From contig CAMDKY010000004.1 in the NCBI GenBank assembly GCA_945901245.1, forward strand, positions 1 to 64,000: DNA of 64,000 nucleotides. Direction: 5' to 3'. The notes under the pieces were generated by a model that ran no database searches, was not told where the DNA came from, and saw only the letters and a list, made by a program, of their open reading frames with translations. The translations under genes and the position numbers were made by a program. Below are positions 23,327 to 51,623 of the stretch, piece after piece. Position 1 is the stretch's first letter. Each line of letters opens with the position of its first letter. The DNA is from Polynucleobacter meluiroseus. GTDB lineage: Bacteria > Pseudomonadota > Gammaproteobacteria > Burkholderiales > Burkholderiaceae.

Positions 23327-23781
23327 TACTGCGCCCCTTGTGGCTTAAGCATCACTGCAAACTCGACAACATTGTCTTTTCCAAATGACTCTAAATCAAT
23401 CCGATTGCCCGTAGCCGGATCCAATAAAGTCAAACGACCGTCTGCTCGCGCAATTAACTCAAATGGAACAGATTGGTTTACTTCTTTAATGCGCCGCTCA
23501 CGCGCCATAGCCCGCAAGATTCCCCGAACAAACCCAGCCTCGCCCTCGATCACTTTGACTATCTGACCGTCGGGCGCTGATATGACAGCAATAGAACCGT
23601 CACTGCGATCTTCAAAGCGCAATTGCTTGGTAATTACCGCCTTCGCATCCGCCTCACGCGTCAACTTTCCTGTATTCACGTAGTCGGCCACAAATAAAAT
23701 CAAGGCAGCCAAACTGCTCACAGCAATCAGTGCCAGGTATTTTGGTATGGGCATACCGCGGGTAGGCTGAGCTGTGTTCAT
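23326..23781 (-). CDS. puhC: Photosynthetic complex assembly protein PuhC
   Basis: Single N-terminal TM, LRFEDRSDGSIAVISAPDGQIV..GFVRGILRAMARERR; position after puhB. Confidence 0.88.
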   Translation of the reverse strand: MNTAQPTRGMPIPKYLALIAVSSLAALILFVADYVNTGKLTREADAKAVITKQLRFEDRSDGSIAVISAPDGQIVKVIEGEAGFVRGILRAMARERRIKEVNQSVPFELIARADGRLTLLDPATGNRIDLESFGKDNVVEFAVMLKPQGAQ

Positions 23782-24488
23782 GCGGCTTTGATTTCTCCAT
23801 TTAATCCAGAAGTACGACTAACTTGCACCTCAGGATACAAGAGGGTATCGCTTTTTGCTGAGCGCATCGTTTGTTCGGCTAATTCCACTTGATTTACCTC
23901 AGACCACGCATCCGATAACAAGCTAGCAACCCGCTGACTATCAGGGATGCAACGCAACATGGGCTCAGGATTAGCCCAAGCACCGGGTTTGGCGTGTGGC
24001 CACAAATGAAATACCGCTATCTTAGTTTGTACATCGAGCTTCAATGGAATGTCGCCAATACCATTTTTTCCGACATTCAAGCCCGCACTTTGTATTTTCG
24101 ACAGGGGTAAATTGAATGTCATGCCCAGCACAATACCAATACGCATCACGATGCGGCGATCCGTCAGCGTATATAGCGTGGTGGAACTAATTAAGTAAGC
24201 AAAATAGGCAACCAAACCAAGACACATAGCAGACAATACAGACATCCACACCATCGACATGGCCAGACTGGCAAATGCATCACCATCATAGATACCCGAA
24301 AATAAACGGTAGGCTAGCAAAATTCCAAAGTAAATTACCAGCGCCCGCATGTGGAAGACCCGCAATGCTACTGCCTTAAAGTCAGGCGCACCCTGCCAAA
24401 GGATGGATTCCCCCTTTGGCAACTTCTCTGGTAGGCCAAGCTGAGCCTCGAATTCATGCTCAGGACTTGAATGCAGGTTGGGGTTCAT
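23778..24488 (-). CDS. puhB: Photosynthetic complex assembly protein PuhB
   Basis: PH-like membrane protein; LPKGESILWQGAPDFKAVALRVFHMRALVIYF. Confidence 0.9.
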   Translation of the reverse strand: MNPNLHSSPEHEFEAQLGLPEKLPKGESILWQGAPDFKAVALRVFHMRALVIYFGILLAYRLFSGIYDGDAFASLAMSMVWMSVLSAMCLGLVAYFAYLISSTTLYTLTDRRIVMRIGIVLGMTFNLPLSKIQSAGLNVGKNGIGDIPLKLDVQTKIAVFHLWPHAKPGAWANPEPMLRCIPDSQRVASLLSDAWSEVNQVELAEQTMRSAKSDTLLYPEVQVSRTSGLNGEIKAA

Positions 24489-25252
24489 AGGAGTGGCTCC
24501 TGGCGATCTGGCGTAGCGTATAAAGTACCGCCGCCGTAGTACGCCATGACCTTCTCTTCTTCCAATAAGGTAATTTGCTCTGGATGCTTCGTGGTAGGCA
24601 CATGGGCAAACTGGGTCGATAAAATCGATTGCACCGTGATTTGCTCTTTACCAATTCGGCTGAAGTTCATTGGCAGTAATACAGTTTTGCCGCTATCCAA
24701 CTTAACTTCCAAATAGCGAATCGTCACTTCCATGTGATCGATCCAAGCATCCGCAACAGTGCCGGCCAAATTACCGTCGGCGCCCACCACCTTCATACCA
24801 ATGGGGTTACGATCTTTGCTCGATAAACCAAACTCGGGCAATAAACGCAGTGGCCGAATGCGAGCATGGCCCTCTAAGTCATAGTCGACATGATCGGCGC
24901 GTTGCGCATACGATCCTGGACCTACCCCAGCCAGCATGGGATTACCGGTCGGCTGCATGGGTGCGCCATTCCAAGGATGTGCTGGCTCAGCGGCAATGCG
25001 CTCTACCTCGGGCGGCGTAGGTAATGGTGCCGTATAGGTTTTACCGAATTCGGTTTTATACGTCACTGGTCGCGGCATACCTAAAATACCATCTTCGTGG
25101 CGTACTTTGCCATAACGCTCGGTCTCCAGCGGAAAGCCTTCGCGCTTACCTTCCAGGGTCAAGTAAATGACGAGCCCTATGAAAAAAAGCAAAAAGATAT
25201 AAAAAGCGATTTGTGCTACATCGATGTATTGCGTTATTGCTCCGGTTCCCAT
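24485..25252 (-). CDS. puhA: Photosynthetic reaction centre H subunit
   Basis: YIDVAQIAFYIFLLFFIGLVIYLTLEGKREGFPLETER; PRC-barrel C-terminus. Confidence 0.97.
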   Translation of the reverse strand: MGTGAITQYIDVAQIAFYIFLLFFIGLVIYLTLEGKREGFPLETERYGKVRHEDGILGMPRPVTYKTEFGKTYTAPLPTPPEVERIAAEPAHPWNGAPMQPTGNPMLAGVGPGSYAQRADHVDYDLEGHARIRPLRLLPEFGLSSKDRNPIGMKVVGADGNLAGTVADAWIDHMEVTIRYLEVKLDSGKTVLLPMNFSRIGKEQITVQSILSTQFAHVPTTKHPEQITLLEEEKVMAYYGGGTLYATPDRQEPLL

Positions 25253-42316: not shown

Positions 42317-43889
42317 GCTTACTCTGCTGGAAATAGGGTGGGCTAACCGGCTTGATCACCGAATCCAAGGCCTTGGCCGAAGACAGCACCCCTGGAATGC
42401 CTGCGCCAGGATGGGTGCTCGCGCCGACCATGTACAAACCATGAATATCTTCGCTGCGATTGTGCGGCCTAAACCAAGCGCTTTGCGTTAGTAAGGGCTC
42501 AAGACCAAAGGCGGCGCCTTTATGAGACAGCAAGCGATCCTTAAAGTCTTGTGGCGTCATCATGAATGACTCGGTGATGTTGGCTTGCAAATCCGGCATC
42601 ACGGTGCTCTCCAACATGCTTGCTATCGACTGACGGTAGGACTCTGCCACGGTTTGCCAATCGGTTCCACTATCCAAGTGGGGCACTGGGGAGAGGACAT
42701 AAAACGTATCGCAACCCTCAGGTGCCATCGATGGATCGGTTGCCGTCGGGCGATGCAAATAAAGACTGAAGTCTTTGGCTAAATGGTGCTTTTTAAAAAT
42801 ATCATCCAGCAGCGTTTTATAGCGCTCACCCAACAGCATCATGTGGTGTGGAATTTCTGGGTATTTTTTCTTAGTACCAAAATACCAAACAAACAAACTC
42901 ATGGAGTACTTGCCGTTATCAACCTTTTTATCGGTCCATACCTTACGGTATTTAGCATCTACTAAATTTTTATAGGTCCATGCGGTATCGGCATTCGAGA
43001 CCACTAAATCAGAGTACAAAACCTGACCATTTTCAAGCGTGACGCCAGTAACGTGATTGTCTTCAATATTAATTTTACGTACGGTAGAGTTGTAGCGAAC
43101 TTCAACGCCCTGCTCGCCCAGTAACTTCACTAATCCTTGAATTAGCTGGCCAGTACCACCCATAACGGAATGGACGCCCCATTTACGCTCCAAGGCATTA
43201 ATCAGCGAATATACTGCCGTCACCGAGAAGGGATTACCACCAATCAGCAGTGGATGAAAGCTCATCACTTCACGCAGTTGTGGATTTTTAATGTGCTTCG
43301 CGACCAAGGAATAGAGATTATTCCAAGCGCGCATCTTGACTAGACTCGGAAAGGCTTTCGCCAGATCCCCCAAACTCTGAAAGCAGAAATCGCCCAACTC
43401 TTCAAAGCCTAACTTGTAGCATTTTTCCGCCTCATTTAGAAAGCGCTCATAACCCGGTAAATCCGATGGCTCAAATCTGGCCACTTCTGCGCGCATTTTT
43501 TCTGGATCGCCGGTGTAATGAAAAATCCGCCCATCGGCAAATCGCACTTGATAGAAAGGATCCATCATGCGTAAATCAATGTCGTCTTTCATGTTGCGGC
43601 CACATAAAGTCCACAACTCTTCCAGCAGAAATGGAGCCGTAATAATGGTAGGGCCTGCATCAAAGGTATAGCCATTGCGGCGGTGCACATAGGCGCGGCC
43701 GCCAGGTGAGTCAAGCCGCTCGAGTACCGTTACCTCATAACCCTTCACTGCTAGCCGAATAGCGGCGGCCAAGCCGCCAAAACCACTGCCAATCACAATA
43801 GCCCGAGCGCCTGTCTTTTTAGCTCCGCCTAAAACAGCCAGCTCGGGTAATTTAAATCGATCGACCTTTTGATCCATTACTACTCCCAA
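42303..43889 (-). CDS. crtI: Phytoene desaturase
   Basis: IGSGFGGLAAAIRLAVKGYEVTVLERLDSPGGRAYV; GASTHPGAGIPGVLSSAK. Confidence 0.96.
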   Translation of the reverse strand: MGVVMDQKVDRFKLPELAVLGGAKKTGARAIVIGSGFGGLAAAIRLAVKGYEVTVLERLDSPGGRAYVHRRNGYTFDAGPTIITAPFLLEELWTLCGRNMKDDIDLRMMDPFYQVRFADGRIFHYTGDPEKMRAEVARFEPSDLPGYERFLNEAEKCYKLGFEELGDFCFQSLGDLAKAFPSLVKMRAWNNLYSLVAKHIKNPQLREVMSFHPLLIGGNPFSVTAVYSLINALERKWGVHSVMGGTGQLIQGLVKLLGEQGVEVRYNSTVRKINIEDNHVTGVTLENGQVLYSDLVVSNADTAWTYKNLVDAKYRKVWTDKKVDNGKYSMSLFVWYFGTKKKYPEIPHHMMLLGERYKTLLDDIFKKHHLAKDFSLYLHRPTATDPSMAPEGCDTFYVLSPVPHLDSGTDWQTVAESYRQSIASMLESTVMPDLQANITESFMMTPQDFKDRLLSHKGAAFGLEPLLTQSAWFRPHNRSEDIHGLYMVGASTHPGAGIPGVLSSAKALDSVIKPVSPPYFQQSKHAAT

Positions 43890-43920
43890 TCATTAGCAGA
43901 GCTTGAAAACCAAGCCCCAC

Positions 43921-44961
43921 TTACTTCTGTTGCGCTACAGTTACAGGCTTTTCAGTTGGCGGTCCGACTAAGTAAGGGAAGTCTTTCAGCATACTTTTTC
44001 CCAACAAAGGCTTATTCACCCCTTGATGGCAGGTGGCGCAATTCGCTTTGGCAACATCCCCATCAGGTCCTAAGCGGTTCGGCGGAAAAATCGATGTGAT
44101 GGGCACGATGTAATTACTGTTCACGTCCTTTACCATCTGTATGCCATACCAAGCCTGTGCTCGTTGTGGTGGACTTTGCTCCCATTCCGCAAAAGCTCTG
44201 GAGTTATGGCAATAGGTGCAATTGACACCCAAAGCATTGGATTGATGGATCATTACCGCAAAGACCGATTCAGTTTCCTGAATCGATTTGACATGGCCGT
44301 TCGGTAGAGCAGTAGGTCCTGTTACACGGGCAGCATCTTTACCAGCCAAGAAATAACTTGAGAAGGGTTGATTGGGCAAAGAGGAATAGCCGACCACTGG
44401 CGAGGGCATGTTTTGACCATTGCGATTACCCAGCATGCCGCCTTTTTTCTTTTCTGCGGTTTCAAACCAAACTTCTTTCGGTATTGCATTACCCCGATGG
44501 CAGGTATAGCAGGTCACGCCGGTATCTTTGACGTGAGTATTCCAATTGGAATTGATTGCCTGTGTCATCTGAATCATCGTACGCGAAACGTTTTTGGTGT
44601 AAACCGAATCGTCTGCAAAGTTCTGCACATTGTGGCAATAGCCACAGCCTTCATTTGGAGCAATCCAAGCCGTCATCGCCACCATGAAACTAGTGAACTG
44701 CGCTTCACTTAAGTTACCCAGTACTTTGACGTTTTTGTACACCGCACTTGCCTTGGGTCCATCGGGAGAGGCAGCTACGCTCACAGGAACAATATTTTCA
44801 GCCGCTAACTTTTCCTGTGTACGGGGATTATTAATCTCCACCATCGCTGTGCCGCGGAAACCGGTTTGTACGGCATCAATCGGTGGTCGCTCACAACCTG
44901 TTAACAGGGCTGCCGAGGCGAGACCTAAAATAATCAGTAATTTATTGAGTCCAGCGTTCAT
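43921..44961 (-). CDS. pufC: Tetraheme reaction-centre cytochrome c subunit
   Basis: Four CXXCH motifs (CGYCH, CYTCH, CTYCH, CATCH) and lipobox LLTGC. Confidence 0.97.
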   Translation of the reverse strand: MNAGLNKLLIILGLASAALLTGCERPPIDAVQTGFRGTAMVEINNPRTQEKLAAENIVPVSVAASPDGPKASAVYKNVKVLGNLSEAQFTSFMVAMTAWIAPNEGCGYCHNVQNFADDSVYTKNVSRTMIQMTQAINSNWNTHVKDTGVTCYTCHRGNAIPKEVWFETAEKKKGGMLGNRNGQNMPSPVVGYSSLPNQPFSSYFLAGKDAARVTGPTALPNGHVKSIQETESVFAVMIHQSNALGVNCTYCHNSRAFAEWEQSPPQRAQAWYGIQMVKDVNSNYIVPITSIFPPNRLGPDGDVAKANCATCHQGVNKPLLGKSMLKDFPYLVGPPTEKPVTVAQQK

Positions 44962-45962
44962 TATTTTGCTCCCTGAATAGCGACAGGTGCCATCGGTGCA
45001 CTCAATGCAGGATCGGCAACTACTTCAAAGTAGGCAGGGTATGCCGGAGCAATGCCGTGTTTAACCCCCCATAGGTACCAGTTATCCACCACGGTACCGG
45101 TTAATAAGATTCCAATTCCGCCCGTAATTGGGGTCAATACTGCAAACCACCAAGCCCAGCGGTGAATCGATTCCATCGTCGCATTAAAGCCCATAGTCCA
45201 GCGCCAGAAAAGACCAGCGCGCTCGGATGCCGTTCCACGATCGACGATTTGCTCAATCTCGCGCTCGCCGCCAAAACGGCTGACTGCCAAGATGGTTGCC
45301 CCGTGCATTGCAAAGAGCAATACCGAGCCATATAAGAACACAATCGACAGCATGTGGAAGGGGTTGTAGAACAAATTACCGTAGCGAATCGAAAAGGCAG
45401 TGGTCCAGTCGAGATGAGAGAAGATACCAAATGGAACGGCCTCAGCCCAGCTACCCATCAGTACGGGACGTATCAGACCAAGCACTAAAAATAACCATAT
45501 TGCAGCGGCAAATGCCCAAGGTACATGGGTTCCCATACCCAATGCAATCGCACGGCGATAGGTGCGATACCACCACAACATAATTGAGATCGTTGTGAAG
45601 AGACCAGCGATTAACCACCAGCCGCCTTCATTCATGGGCGGAAAGGTCAGGCCATATTTAGGCGCAGGTGGATCCAGTGATAACCAAAATAGCTGGCGTA
45701 CAAACTGAATTGGGTTCCAATCCACCTGGGCCAGCATATTAAAGCCGATCAGAACAAACGCGGTGATGCCAAACATCAATGAGGCAACGCCAAGTCGGCC
45801 TAAATAAATGGGTCCGAGCTGCGCATTACCGATGACCCCCATGAGGTAACTAAAACCAAATGGTTTAGTGCGCTCCCGCATATCGTAGGCATTGATCGGC
45901 ACGCCATGACTAGCGGGACCAGTTACTTGAGTTTGGGTAAATAAATTTTGATATTCCATCAT
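44961..45962 (-). CDS. pufM: Reaction centre M subunit
   Basis: [18 protein letters not shown] family with conserved His residues ([13 protein letters not shown]). Confidence 0.97.
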
Positions 45963-45973
45963 GATCTCTCCTA

Positions 45974-46798
45974 TTAGCTCCAGATGGGCAAGTTAAGCCA
46001 CCATGTCCACCATTCAGGCCATCCTTTGGTCCAGAATGGGCCGCTAATCACAATACAAACAGCGCTCCAAAAGCCTGCCGATAAAGCTAGAAACAAGCCA
46101 ACCCGGTGAATGCCTAAGGTACCAACGGAGTAGCCAACAAAATCCCGAAAGAAGGTATCTTCATGCTCAGGCGTTTTTACATTGTGGCCAGGCTGCGGGT
46201 TTGTTGATGACAAAACCAAGGCACCATGCAATGACAATGCCAAAGTCGTAGTGAAGAAGAAAGTAACAGCCAGCATGTGCGCCGGGTTGTAATGGAAGTG
46301 CAGATACTGATACCCGGTATTCGATACCCAATCCAAATGACTCAAGATGCCGTAGGGGAAGCCATGTCCCCAAGCGCCCATCAAGACTGGACGAATGACC
46401 ACTAAGGTGAAGTAAGCAAAGATCGCCATACCAAAAGCAACCGGAACATGTAGCCCCATGCCCAGCTTGCGGCAAATTTCGACTTCACGGAGTGCCCACG
46501 ATATAAAGGCACCTAAGGCGCAGATCGTGATGATTTGCCATAAACCACCTTCCATCATCGGCGCCGGTCCTAGCCCGTAACTGATGTCGGGCGGCGCAAT
46601 ATTAATCTGCCACACATTCCAAACGCCGGATTGGGCAGCGCCCCAGAGTATGAGCGCAGTACCTAAAAAGCTAAAAAATATGGTTGTGACGCCAAAAAAA
46701 CCAACATAGAATGGCCCAACCCAGAAATCAAAGAGATCTCCGCCGATTAAGGTGCCACCGCGTACGCGGTATTTCTTTTCAAAATTGAGCATAGCCAT
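45974..46798 (-). CDS. pufL: Reaction centre L subunit
   Basis: [37 protein letters not shown]. Confidence 0.98.
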
Positions 46799-46847
46799 TT
46801 ATGCACTCCTTACTAAACGAGATAGTTCTCGTCTCTAATTAATCTGC

Positions 46848-46883
46848 CGTAAGCAGGTAACTATCGCTAGGTACCCACTTACG
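46848..46883 (-). promoter_or_regulatory. pufA-pufL intercistronic RNA hairpin
   Basis: Transcript CGTAAGUGGGUA-N12-UACCUGCUUACG: 12 consecutive pairs including two G-U, 12-nt loop, just 3' of pufA stop. Confidence 0.75.
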
Positions 46884-46895
46884 CCGGTACAACAA

Positions 46896-47072
46896 TTACT
46901 TCTTGGAAGCTGCAACTGCAGCTTGATACTCCGCTTGACTCAAGCCATCGAGCCATTTGTATTGAGTGGTACTCAATAGGATCAAATGAATCATTGCGGC
47001 CAAAGCAAAGAGAAAAACGCCCTGCGCAACCATCGCGCGTAGTGGGTCGTATAGTTTCCAAATTCTCCACAT
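46896..47072 (-). CDS. pufA: LH1 alpha polypeptide
   Basis: Read directly: [58 protein letters not shown] (58 aa); TM with BChl-ligand His; SD AGGAGA upstream. Absent from ORF track. Confidence 0.95.
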
Positions 47073-47082
47073 AATGTTTCTC

Positions 47083-47304
47083 CTAATTTAAGTAAGACAT
47101 AAAGCTATAAACGCCGCTTTCGACAGTCTTAAAAAATGATGCGCTGTCTGAACTTCCAAACAGCCAGCTTTTTTGAGATGCCGGCAAAACGATCGTTAAC
47201 AAGGCAACCCCAAAGATCACTACATAACTAATTAAAAAAATAAGTTTGAAAGACAGTCTGTCGTCTACCAAATTTTTATTTAAAACTTCTGCATTTATCT
47301 TCAT
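47083..47304 (-). CDS. Uncharacterised single-TM protein between pufB and pufA (73 aa)
   Basis: [79 protein letters not shown] 7-10 nt upstream; no His, so not an LH polypeptide. Confidence 0.75.
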
Positions 47305-47348
47305 GATTCACCTCTTCACTTTATTTTCTAAAACTTAATTACTACTTC

Positions 47349-47495
47349 TTAAAAAAACCATGGACGCCACGCCCATACGAGGATGTGCGCAACAACAGCG
47401 ATTGCAGTAAATCCAAGAAGTCCTTGTACATAAAATGTATGGAATTCTTGAGCCTCTGCATCGGTAAGCCCAGATATAGATCTGTTTTCACTCAT
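47349..47495 (-). CDS. pufB: LH1 beta polypeptide
   Basis: Read directly: [48 protein letters not shown] (48 aa); conserved AHxLVWxWRPW; SD AAGGAG. Absent from ORF track. Confidence 0.95.
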
Positions 47496-47618
47496 GATGA
47501 ATACTCCTTAAGACTGACCTTGCGGTCTTTTCTACATCACCCCTGTAGATTTGGGGACATGGCATGGTGGTGCCATATTCGGTTTGCCCTAACTGCAGGC
47601 TAATTGTTTGGTGTATGC

Positions 47619-49079
47619 TCATGCGGTTTCCATCACCCCTAAAGACGTTTTGGATTTATTCACACAAGCAACGGTGACGCGTTCTAAATTTCCGCTGCGC
47701 GCCTCGCGCTCGGACATATCGCGCAGGCGCTTTGCAACGGAGATCTGGGTCAACACAGGCTGGCCACTAATTAAGCGATTCAGCAGTAATTGCGCTTCGA
47801 CATCCCATGGCATTGCATGGATCGCGGTTTTCAAACGGGCTGGAGTAGGATCCACCTTATCCATCTCCGTGCCCAAGGGCAGAATATGAAAGAGTGCATC
47901 AAACAGCGCATTGCATACTTCTTGAATTAAGTAAGCCGCTCCCGAATAGCCCATGTAAGGGGTTCCGGTATGCCGACGAATAATCGCCCCGGGGAAAGAT
48001 GCAGGAATATAAGAGCAACGTGCATTGACTTCGCTGGCATACATCCGTTCGTTGTAACTACCAAATAGAACCAATGGCGTTTTCTTTTGTACTAAATTAC
48101 GAATCTCCATGTTGTCCGTTTTTTGGCCTGGCATTCTGGAGACTGCAAAGTTGCAAGGTAGGCCCATTTCAGTCTCTAAGAAATGACTGACGCCGCGTGT
48201 GTAGGTTTCATTAGCCACGATTGCAAAGCTCGCGGTACCAAAAAAGTCCTGGGTCACCGAGCGCCACAAGTCCCATACTGGCTTTAAGGTCGTATTTTTT
48301 TCCAATGCTATGAATGGCTCTGGATCAAGACCAGTCAATTCGCCTAATTTACGTAAAAATGACGTAGTGGAATGCATGCCAATTGGCGCTTGCAAATAGG
48401 GCCGCTCTAATGTTTCGCAGAGGAGGCGACCAAATTCACGGTACATGCAAATATTCACGTCGGAATCAGCCAACTTTTCCACATCAGCTAAATGGCTGCT
48501 AAGCGGAAACACCATATTGATTTGGGCGCCAATGCCCTCCACCAAGCGTTTAATTTCGGCTAGGTCACTGTATAAATTGAATGTGCCATACGCTGGTCCA
48601 ATAATATTCACCATTGGCTTTTCGCCATCTTTACGCGCTGGCCGTGCTGGTATTTTCTTCAATCCATACTCGGTCCATAACCAGTTCATCGCCCGGTTAG
48701 CGCACTGCCACTGATCTTCATCAATCGTTCTAGGCAAAAAGCGCTTGATGCCGGTACCTTCTGGAGTAACGCCGCCGCCAATCATCTCTGCAATCGATCC
48801 AGTAACCACTACCGCTGGTAAATCAGGATCCAGTACTTTATGTGCCCGCTTCATCGACTCTTCGGTGCCTTCGCGGCCCAATTGCTCTTCTGCTAGTCCA
48901 GTTACCACGATGGGTAACTCATGGGGTGGCAATGCATCGGTGTAATGCAACACCGATGTCACCGGAAGGTTTTCGCAACCCACCGGTCCATCAATGACAA
49001 CTTGCAACCCCTTGATTGCAGTAAATACATAGACAGCGCCCCAGTAGCCGCCAGCACGATCGTGGTCTAGTACTAGCAT
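47619..49079 (-). CDS. bchZ: Chlorophyllide a reductase subunit Z
   Basis: [65 protein letters not shown]. Confidence 0.97.
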
Positions 49080-50602
49080 TAGCCCATCTCCTCTGCTTTA
49101 CGTTTCTTCTGCGCTTTTTCATTGCGGCGACGAGTCTCAGCACGAAAATCCGGGTGATCCACAGGTAAGGCATCCCATACCCCAGCCGAGTAACCGGTAC
49201 CAACACCTTCAAAGAAGTCTTTCATGACATCAAAGCGGGCTTGATTACCAAGGGCTGAATTAATCACCTGCGCTAGCGATCCAGCACCGGCAGCGCCCAT
49301 GAGGGGTCTTGCTGAAATTAAGTTGGTGAAATACAGCGACGGTATTGCTGCTTCTTTGGCTTTTTGCACAATCGGTGTTGTACCAATCACTAAATCGGGC
49401 TTAAATTCATGCATAGCAGCTTCGTCTTGCTCAAGCGATGCACGGTATTGCACATGCACTCCGCGCGATTCCAGCCAATCTTGATCAGCGCTACTCCAAA
49501 TGGTTTTGGGGCAAGCTGTGCCAACGTATTTCACATCAGCACCGCTCTCAATCAGTAAACGGGCAACTAAGAGCTCAGAGCCCTCGTAGCCACTCATCGT
49601 AATACGGCCTTTAATTGGCTTTGCAGCCAGGGCTGCTTTAATCATGGGCAAGAACTGGTCTTTCGATAGCCCTACTTTTGCTTTTGAAATGCCGCAGGCC
49701 TCACCAATCGAATCAAGCCAAGCTGCAGTGCCTTCGTAACCAATGGGGGCTGAGCCGACAATTTTTCGTCCAGCCGCCTCAAATTCACGAATACTCGCGG
49801 TATAAAACGGATGAATCGCTGCAACTACTTTTGAGTCCAATGCTTGATAGAGTTCGCGCCACTCACGGGTTGGCACAACCGGCCCTACTGCTAAACCCAT
49901 TGGCTCGAGCATCATGCCAATTCCAACCGGATCGACCGGGAACATTTCCCCAAGCAAGGTGATGGTTGGCTTGTCGGATACACCATTGCGTGGTGCCGAT
50001 ACAGGACCCGACTCGGCCTCACCGCGGGCATAACGCAACATCGCACTAGCTAATACGTCTTTTGCTTCAGCATGGGTTGGTACGCCAAATCCAGGCACAT
50101 CAATACCAATGATGCGCACGCCATTGATTTCTTTTGGTAGGAGTTGTAAAGGTACGCCGCTAGCGGTTGGCACGCAGAGGTTAATAATCACAATCGCGTC
50201 ATACAGCTCTGGGTTGGCTTCTTTGTAAACTGCGTCCCGAATATCTTCAAACAATTTGCCAGTGACCAGACTTTCCGAGTTGAATGGCACATAACCCACG
50301 CTGCGACGCGCGCCATAAAAGTGGGAAGTAAAGGTCAATCCATAAACGCAGCAGGCAGATCCCGAAAGGATGGTTGCCGTACGGCGCATGCGCAATCCAA
50401 CTCGCAAGGAACCAAAGGCGGGGCACATACTCTGAGGTTGGTCGTGCGGGCCCTTGGGATAATCTTTGGCGTACTGTCCTAGGATCTCACTTTTGTTCGA
50501 TGCATGAGCAGCTGCTAATAATTTTTCTGCGCCAGAGTGGCAGCCCATTCCATCTTGGGTCAGTGCCTCGCTCTGAATTGGAATTATTTTGGATTGGCTC
50601 AT
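49079..50602 (-). CDS. bchY: Chlorophyllide a reductase subunit Y
   Basis: Downstream of bch[51 protein letters not shown]. Confidence 0.97.
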
Positions 50603-50615
50603 GGCGTATGGATCA

Positions 50616-51623
50616 TTAGACTTTGTCGTAAATCACTTCGAGGGTTGGCTTGATGACTTCATCTTTGCCAACCATGTCGAAAATAGTAGCGGGTTCAAGC
50701 ACCACATTGCGTCCGACTTGGTCTGCTGAAAACAAGCCGAGTAAGTCATCTGAGGTCATGGGCTTAGGCCGCACAGGTGGCGCCTCTGCCACATTAAGAG
50801 CCAACTCTTCAAAAACCGATGCCCATTGGCTATCGGGCTTACCGATAATTTCGTAACTGGCGCTCTTGCGGCGGATATCTTCGTTTGCAGGGATTGCCGA
50901 CAAAACAGGGATACCTACTTTTTCCGCAAAGGCTTTGGCCTCGCCGGTTCCATCGTCTTTATTAATTACCATGCCCGCTACGCCCACATTACCGCCCAGC
51001 TTACGGAAATACTCTACGGCTGAGCACACGTTATTGGCAACGTAGAGGGACTGCAAATCGTTACTTGCCACTACGATGACCTTTTGGCACATGTCGCGGG
51101 CGATGGGCAAACCAAAGCCACCACAAACGACGTCGCCTAAGAAGTCGAGTAAGACATAATCAAAACCCCAGTCATGGAAGCCCAGTTTTTCGAGGGTTTC
51201 AAAACCATGGATGATGCCGCGCCCACCGCAGCCACGACCGACTTCTGGGCCACCCAACTCCATCGCAAATACGCCATCGCGCTTAAAGCAAACATCACCG
51301 ATTTTGACTTCTTCACCAGCCAGTTTTTTCTTTGATGAGGTTTCAATAATGGTGGGGCACGCCTTGCCGCCGAAGAGCAGTGAAGTGGTATCGCTTTTTG
51401 GATCGCAACCAATTAGTAATACTTTTTTACCTTGCTGCGCCATCATGTACGACAGGTTGGCCAAGGTAAAACTTTTACCGATTCCGCCTTTGCCGTAAAT
51501 TGCAATGATCTGTGTTTTTTTCGTTACCTCGCCGGTGTGCACTGGATCTGGCTCCACCGCAGCTTCTTTTTTTAAGTTCGTAAACTGAATCGTGATTTCT
51601 TTTGGGTTTACTGGGGCGTTCAT
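50616..51623 (-). CDS. bchX: Chlorophyllide a reductase iron protein subunit X
   Basis: [55 protein letters not shown]; start MNAPVNPKE at 51623 overlaps bchC stop as ATGA. Confidence 0.97.
   Translation of the reverse strand: MNAPVNPKEITIQFTNLKKEAAVEPDPVHTGEVTKKTQIIAIYGKGGIGKSFTLANLSYMMAQQGKKVLLIGCDPKSDTTSLLFGGKACPTIIETSSKKKLAGEEVKIGDVCFKRDGVFAMELGGPEVGRGCGGRGIIHGFETLEKLGFHDWGFDYVLLDFLGDVVCGGFGLPIARDMCQKVIVVASNDLQSLYVANNVCSAVEYFRKLGGNVGVAGMVINKDDGTGEAKAFAEKVGIPVLSAIPANEDIRRKSASYEIIGKPDSQWASVFEELALNVAEAPPVRPKPMTSDDLLGLFSADQVGRNVVLEPATIFDMVGKDEVIKPTLEVIYDKV

Follow-up and report, generated by a model that had tools for sequence, protein, structure and literature searches.

The small gene between pufB and pufA, hereafter X, very probably arose by duplication of an LH1 beta gene, from an ancestral long-tailed PufB whose roles are now divided between a short PufB and X. 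In the window, that is, the whole stretch of 64,000 nucleotides of Polynucleobacter meluiroseus DNA that was analysed, the gene order on the minus strand is bchZ-pufB-X-pufA-pufL-pufM-pufC (Table 1). Direct reading gives X an ATG start, 73 codons, not a single histidine and one transmembrane (TM) segment, in agreement with a preliminary description, which gave no strand, of a 73-aa, one-TM, His-free ORF that separates pufB from pufA and has a Shine-Dalgarno (SD) sequence of its own. The TM segment spans about residues 20-40, Trp47 corresponds to the final Trp of the beta WRPW motif, a tail helix occupies residues 54-72, and Ile38 aligns with His37 of the adjoining PufB. The whole genome assembly (94% complete) holds a single gene each for LH1 alpha and LH1 beta above the family cut-off, so no LH2 was detected in it. 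Near puhA lie two ORFs (123 and 151 aa) that match no Pfam family at E 1e-5, neighboured by genes for a bPH_2-domain protein and the reaction centre (RC) H subunit.

Table 1. Features in and around the puf and puhA regions of the window, with the basis for each assignment
Feature	Position	Strand	Basis
bchZ	47619-49079	minus	
pufB, short LH1 beta, 48 aa, ending WRPWFF, without tail	47349-47495	minus	ORF, family match
Terminator-like stem-loop, pufB end	47359-47377	minus	
X Shine-Dalgarno GAGGTGA, ahead of ATG at 47304	47308-47314	minus	direct reading
X (ORF2/ORF74 family), probable pigment-less LH1 beta paralog, 73 aa	47083-47304	minus	ORF, profile, alignment, model
X codon 38 (Ile), aligned with the BChl-ligating His of LH1 beta	47191-47193	minus	alignment
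Terminator-like stem-loop in X	47143-47164	minus	
X C-terminal tail, residues 54-72, amphipathic, homologous to long-PufB tails	47089-47145	minus	alignment, hydrophobic moment, AlphaFold, tail HMM
pufA Shine-Dalgarno TAGGAG, overlapping X stop codon	47080-47085	minus	direct reading
pufA, LH1 alpha	46896-47072	minus	ORF, family match
Stem-loops, pufA 3' end and pufA-pufL intergenic, dG -40.2, z -3.1	46795-46920	minus	folding
bPH_2-domain protein	23778-24488		
RC H subunit	24485-25252		
ORF near puhA, 151 aa	23326-23781	minus	
ORF near puhA, 123 aa	22955-23326	minus	

That X is a real gene and not a chance ORF is confirmed by same-place orthologs in 12 or more families and by its dN/dS, which is 0.08-0.25 within Polynucleobacter. 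When relatives were searched, orthologs turned up in about one-third of the Polynucleobacter genomes and in other families, every ortholog with flanking sequence sitting between pufB and pufA. The synteny survey of this gap, which had been proposed as a check, covered 399 Burkholderiales genomes, 48 of them with a reaction centre; two of these (G181 and G334) are cut by contig ends and were left out, and the class counts for the 46 assessable genomes were compiled by hand. Of the 46, 38 carry X in the pufB-pufA gap, five lack X and possess a long PufB (G065, G200, G214, G287 and G317), and three, all of one genus, carry an X-related protein in the pufQ slot instead. Convincing X was absent from 350 Burkholderiales genomes without a reaction centre; G308 has X and no reaction centre that we could find, its contig stopping before pufL. 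Named carriers include Rubrivivax benzoatilyticus, Roseateles depolymerans, R. puraquae, Rivibacter, Piscinibacter, Pseudorhodoferax, Limnohabitans and many Polynucleobacter. Phototrophy itself is patchy: the complete same-genus genomes in the order-wide search have neither reaction centre nor X, a pattern to which G035, G376, G402 and other same-genus genomes belong, and close relatives carry both. A contig titled Thermoflexus hugenholtzii (L075) bears a Burkholderiales-type puf operon near-identical to that of L076 and is likely to represent a mislabelled or contaminated MAG.

The preliminary description called X uncharacterised, but genes at this place have been seen before. The puf operon of Rubrivivax (Rvi.) gelatinosus contains two ORFs, of which ORF2 lies upstream of pufA (Nagashima 1994, cited in PMC12817894), and an ORF74 of unknown function occurs in the puf operon of Roseateles depolymerans (PMC10037100). 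Both lie between pufB and pufA, as X does, and no difference from X was found. ORF2 and ORF74 are here taken as X members on the basis of position, of the length of ORF74 (X of R. depolymerans, at L130, has 74 aa, fitting the name) and, for ORF2, of the near relative R. benzoatilyticus, the X of which is at L136. X as an ORF is therefore already known; its identity as an LH1 beta paralog appears to be new, since a limited literature search found no recognition of ORF2 or ORF74 as such.

Descent of X from the LH1 beta subunit, or paralogy with it, is supported by comparisons of family profiles. When the PDB was searched by hmmsearch, the strong matches were all LH1 beta chains, both with a profile of 13 orthologs (best E=6e-12) and with one of 37 (best 8z81_B, E=5e-15). 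The hhalign alignment of X with the neighbouring PufB, which keeps the WRxW motif in register, gave P=91-92% and a score that beat 100 of 100 shuffles preserving the TM segment (z=6.6). Among individual members, Rivibacter X reaches 27.2 bits and so passes the Pfam LHC cut-off of 23 alone, and AAP99 X comes near it with 20.7 bits. The X sequence of the window has no Pfam match by itself, and its best match in the PDB is an LH1 beta chain at E=0.73, so that the homology becomes apparent through the family profile. A Foldseek search of the PDB with the X model returned no match, but the control with a true PufB returned just one LH beta (E=0.27), so the empty result carries no weight. These profile tests alter the preliminary picture, in which X was set apart from LH polypeptides for want of a histidine. 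Paralogy with LH1 alpha is rejected: ORF2 was tested as an ancestor of the alpha gene and dismissed in a 2025 paper (PMC12817894), and alpha chains in the PDB match the 37-ortholog profile only marginally (8ydm_A, E=0.42). Matches to SecG (E=0.021), to LH1-unrelated Pfam families and to holins were likewise rejected as below cut-offs and TM-driven. Family-profile searches found no X chain among solved PDB structures.

X lacks features of a working pigment-binding beta. None of 107 non-redundant X sequences has His at the BChl-ligand column, which is occupied by Gln in 64 and then by Val, Thr, Ile, Ser, Leu and others. Gln is able in principle to ligate Mg, so the loss of pigment is firm for the X of the window, with its Ile38, and less sure for other members. 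Also missing from the X alignment is the N-terminal SGLTxxEAxEFH domain, present in all aligned PufBs (with EFN in L013). The most conserved part of X is the tail, in which V65, Y66, M69 and S70 are invariant across the 37-member alignment. Conservation of VYxFMS is partly a product of how sequences were selected, one ortholog set having been gathered with a pattern containing this motif; sets gathered without the pattern filter also show it, except for truncated and divergent members. The amphipathic C-terminal segment that had been noted by eye is borne out: the helical hydrophobic moment calculated for the final 18 residues is 0.46, a value reached by none of 1000 shuffles, and AlphaFold places a helix at residues 54-72 with a moderate pLDDT of 69.

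PufB and X are complementary. In 140 X-bearing loci PufB ends 1-3 residues past RPW, and the five X-less Burkholderiales genomes with a long PufB have a single PufB with core, His and a tail of 27-28 residues. The long PufB of L232 is AHILAWQWRPWLPGSGGYTSMIDGVKAAVNSFMPYVFMA, against which Rubrivivax X can be set: ALIGQLLGWHWRSWLPGAEGVKSIFGGVKAAVYTFMSHLL. When an HMM of the X tail alone was run against 14,539 ORFs, long-PufB tails were the sole significant matches other than X itself (E 7e-7 to 1.5e-4), and reversed sequences gave no matches. Long PufBs score 70-81 bits and are the closest homologs of X. Long-tailed betas are common across alphaproteobacteria, and for this reason the long PufB is taken as ancestral. 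The ancestral protein, with a BChl-binding core and a C-terminal tail, would thus have been duplicated, one copy retaining the core and losing the tail to give today's short PufB, and the other retaining the tail and losing the BChl-ligand His and the SGLTxxEAxEFH domain to give X. Phylogeny gives an X clade with UFBoot support of 94, a grouping of X with Burkholderiales long betas at 80 and a separate clade at 100 for the pufQ-slot proteins discussed below; X of G087 is a long branch outside the X clade. The history need not have been tidy. X-bearing and long-beta operons are interleaved in the PufL tree, which argues for transfer, regain or repeated splitting and makes a single clean split too simple. 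PufL of L143 (G214) and of L142, L145 and L148 (genus g65) groups with Roseateles-type X-bearing operons, and these operons nevertheless carry a long PufB or a pufQ-slot protein, which suggests recombination inside puf. Two phototrophs (L221 and L222) have a short beta and neither X nor a pufQ-slot protein, so the tail is not universally required.

The proteins in the pufQ slot, hereafter Q, are X-homologous one-TM proteins encoded between bchZ and pufB in several alphaproteobacteria and in one Burkholderiales genus (g65); the loci noted are L208-L210, L212, L213, L215, L217, L219 and L220 (alphaproteobacteria) and L169-L171. Most are unannotated; only the L217 protein has a weak, sub-cut-off PufQ match, PF05398 being its sole Pfam match (E=0.021) and pufB_517 its sole NCBIfam match (E=0.0012). 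Alignment of X with Q by hhalign gave P=97%, E=1e-10 and z=21, so that in profile score X is nearer to Q than to PufB. This proximity makes a role in pigment biosynthesis or assembly possible. As a PufQ-like biogenesis factor, X would be no stable part of the mature RC-LH1 and would instead handle BChl or its precursors, or would adjust the haem/BChl branch point or the assembly of LH1; in Rhodobacter sphaeroides the enzyme on which PufQ acts is ferrochelatase (PMC5725709). X and Q were not found together in one operon, which speaks for this reading; the bchZ-pufB gap in X operons is 108-244 nt. We nonetheless regard such a role as less likely than the structural reading favoured below, of which it is the main rival. 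Compared directly with Rhodobacter PufQ, X gives a weak P=17-20% and z=3.0 (X or Q against PufQ ranges over a marginal z 2.4-4.2), and PF05398 is matched neither by X nor anywhere in the genome of the window. X is encoded inside the pufB-pufA segment expressed at LH1 level and not ahead of it, lying between pufB and pufA at all X loci where a PufB could be parsed. Moreover, X is absent from the five genomes with a long PufB and Q was not detected in them either, and the long PufBs stand closer to X in bit score than does Q, at most 32 bits; on that comparison the idea of a relocated PufQ was demoted. The PufQ-likeness first suggested for X survives as strong homology to pufQ-slot proteins, with PufQ itself a possible distant relative. 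PufQ shows no profile similarity to beta (z 0.5). The slot proteins hint that PufQ may itself be a diverged relative of LH1 beta, a lead and not a result.

The arrangement of signals bears on how X is expressed. X starts 44 nt from pufB and ends with TAG, and pufA begins 10 nt downstream of X in the window; the X-pufA gap is 9-13 nt in all 80 orthologous loci, and in 71 of them the X stop codon and the pufA SD share nucleotides. From this overlap, translation of X and pufA is likely to be coupled. It is also more constant than the fast-diverging X TM, as might be expected were X a functionless, decaying pseudo-beta retained for operon spacing or for coupling to pufA. Such decay is scarcely credible, however, given the low dN/dS within Polynucleobacter, the four invariant tail residues and the near-universal occurrence of X in the phototrophic Burkholderiales surveyed. 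The strong stem-loops in the pufA-pufL spacer resemble hairpins that elsewhere stabilise the pufBA mRNA segment, and X accordingly lies inside a stretch of message for which stabilisation at LH1 level is expected. A major 1-kb transcript of R. depolymerans carries pufB, ORF74 and pufA together, and no loci depend more on SP70 than these three (PMC10037100), which places the X message at LH1 level in terms of RNA and agrees with the earlier expectation of high expression. Five terminator-like stem-loops were observed in the region against 1.3 expected by shuffle, and those in X and at the pufB end might possibly act in attenuation inside the LH1 message. No Rfam families were found within 43500-50700.

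The reading we favour, with some reservation, is that X is a structural pseudo-beta of RC-LH1, giving in trans what long PufBs hold in cis. X would be transcribed on an abundant pufB-X-pufA message, as the published Roseateles RNA suggests, and its translation may be coupled to that of PufA, so that a non-pigmented LH1 component could be made at LH1 level. Charges flanking the TM segment are near-balanced (N flank +2.2/-2.1, C flank +1.9/-1.6), so topology is not set by charge; homology to beta predicts a cytoplasmic N-terminus and a periplasmic tail. It is somewhat probable, then, that X inserts like beta, N-in/C-out, and that its amphipathic tail helix binds RC-LH1 on the periplasmic surface. 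X might fill a beta-like place and prevent ring closure; alternatively, it might pack between adjacent beta helices, providing in trans contacts that in a long PufB arise in cis, and influence ring stability and quinone passage. The proposal that X is a good candidate accessory RC-LH1 polypeptide has held up, the gene being conserved, single-TM, His-free and within the LH1 part of puf. Of the outcomes named beforehand as counting against it, lack of conservation is contradicted by the survey, and a clear match to PufQ or PufX was not obtained. Packing against beta is also the habit of the gamma-type subunits known from Blastochloris viridis and Rhodopila globiformis (PMC9640540), and X, small, one-TM, pigment-less and expected at LH1 level, could be imagined to seal pores between LH1 beta helices in the same way. 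This is improbable: X has 73 aa, a conserved tail and a gene inside puf, whereas the Rhodopila gamma-like protein has 22 aa and is encoded far from puf. X matches no PDB gamma chain, identity as a gamma subunit is rejected on these same grounds, and packing at the gamma site would be convergence and not family membership. Returning to the structural pseudo-beta, a bolder form, in which betaproteobacterial LH1 consists of alpha, a short beta and a pigment-less tail-bearing X at no more than one copy per alpha-beta pair, is rather doubtful.

Collectively these results would turn an ORF that has had no assigned function since 1994, although it belongs to a model purple bacterium, into an LH1 beta paralog without pigment binding and, if true, the reciprocal losses of X and PufB would be a clear case of subfunctionalisation within the light-harvesting ring. 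Phototrophic Burkholderiales are common freshwater photoheterotrophs, and X concerns the core complex of most of them; no solved core-complex structure for the group was identified among the structures searched. It is predicted that an RC-LH1 with a short PufB should contain X, and that X should be dispensable where PufB is long. Were the three-polypeptide LH1 true, the core complexes of Rubrivivax, Roseateles, Limnohabitans and Polynucleobacter would be structurally distinct, with a split-beta ring unlike any solved structure. The same reasoning suggests that PufQ, the origin of which is unexplained, might join this set of pigment-less beta relatives.

Among known systems, the ring-opening subunits PufX, protein-W and protein-Y are, like X, short single membrane proteins of the core complex, but the analogy is functional only. 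X is beta-derived and matches none of their Pfam families, PufX, PufY and PufW were rejected for want of a profile match, and PufX follows pufM, a position taken in the window by pufC and not by X; the early comparison with PufX or PufY is therefore dropped. LH1 gamma and gamma-like proteins, as pigment-less small LH1-associated helices, are also no more than analogous, the Rhodopila protein being oriented opposite to alpha and beta. PufQ and Q resemble X in size (about 75 aa), in having one TM and in a conserved C-terminus, and Q is homologous to X; the pufQ gene, however, precedes pufB and that of X follows it. Closest is LH1 beta itself (PufB; PF00556 / NF040862), with which X shares TM register, the W/RxW motif, operon and a beta-like size, and from which it differs in the two losses described above and in always standing beside a complete short PufB. 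To the long-tailed PufBs (8z81_B, 7xxf_B and 9m8m_B) the likeness extends further, through a homologous PGxEG linker and tail.
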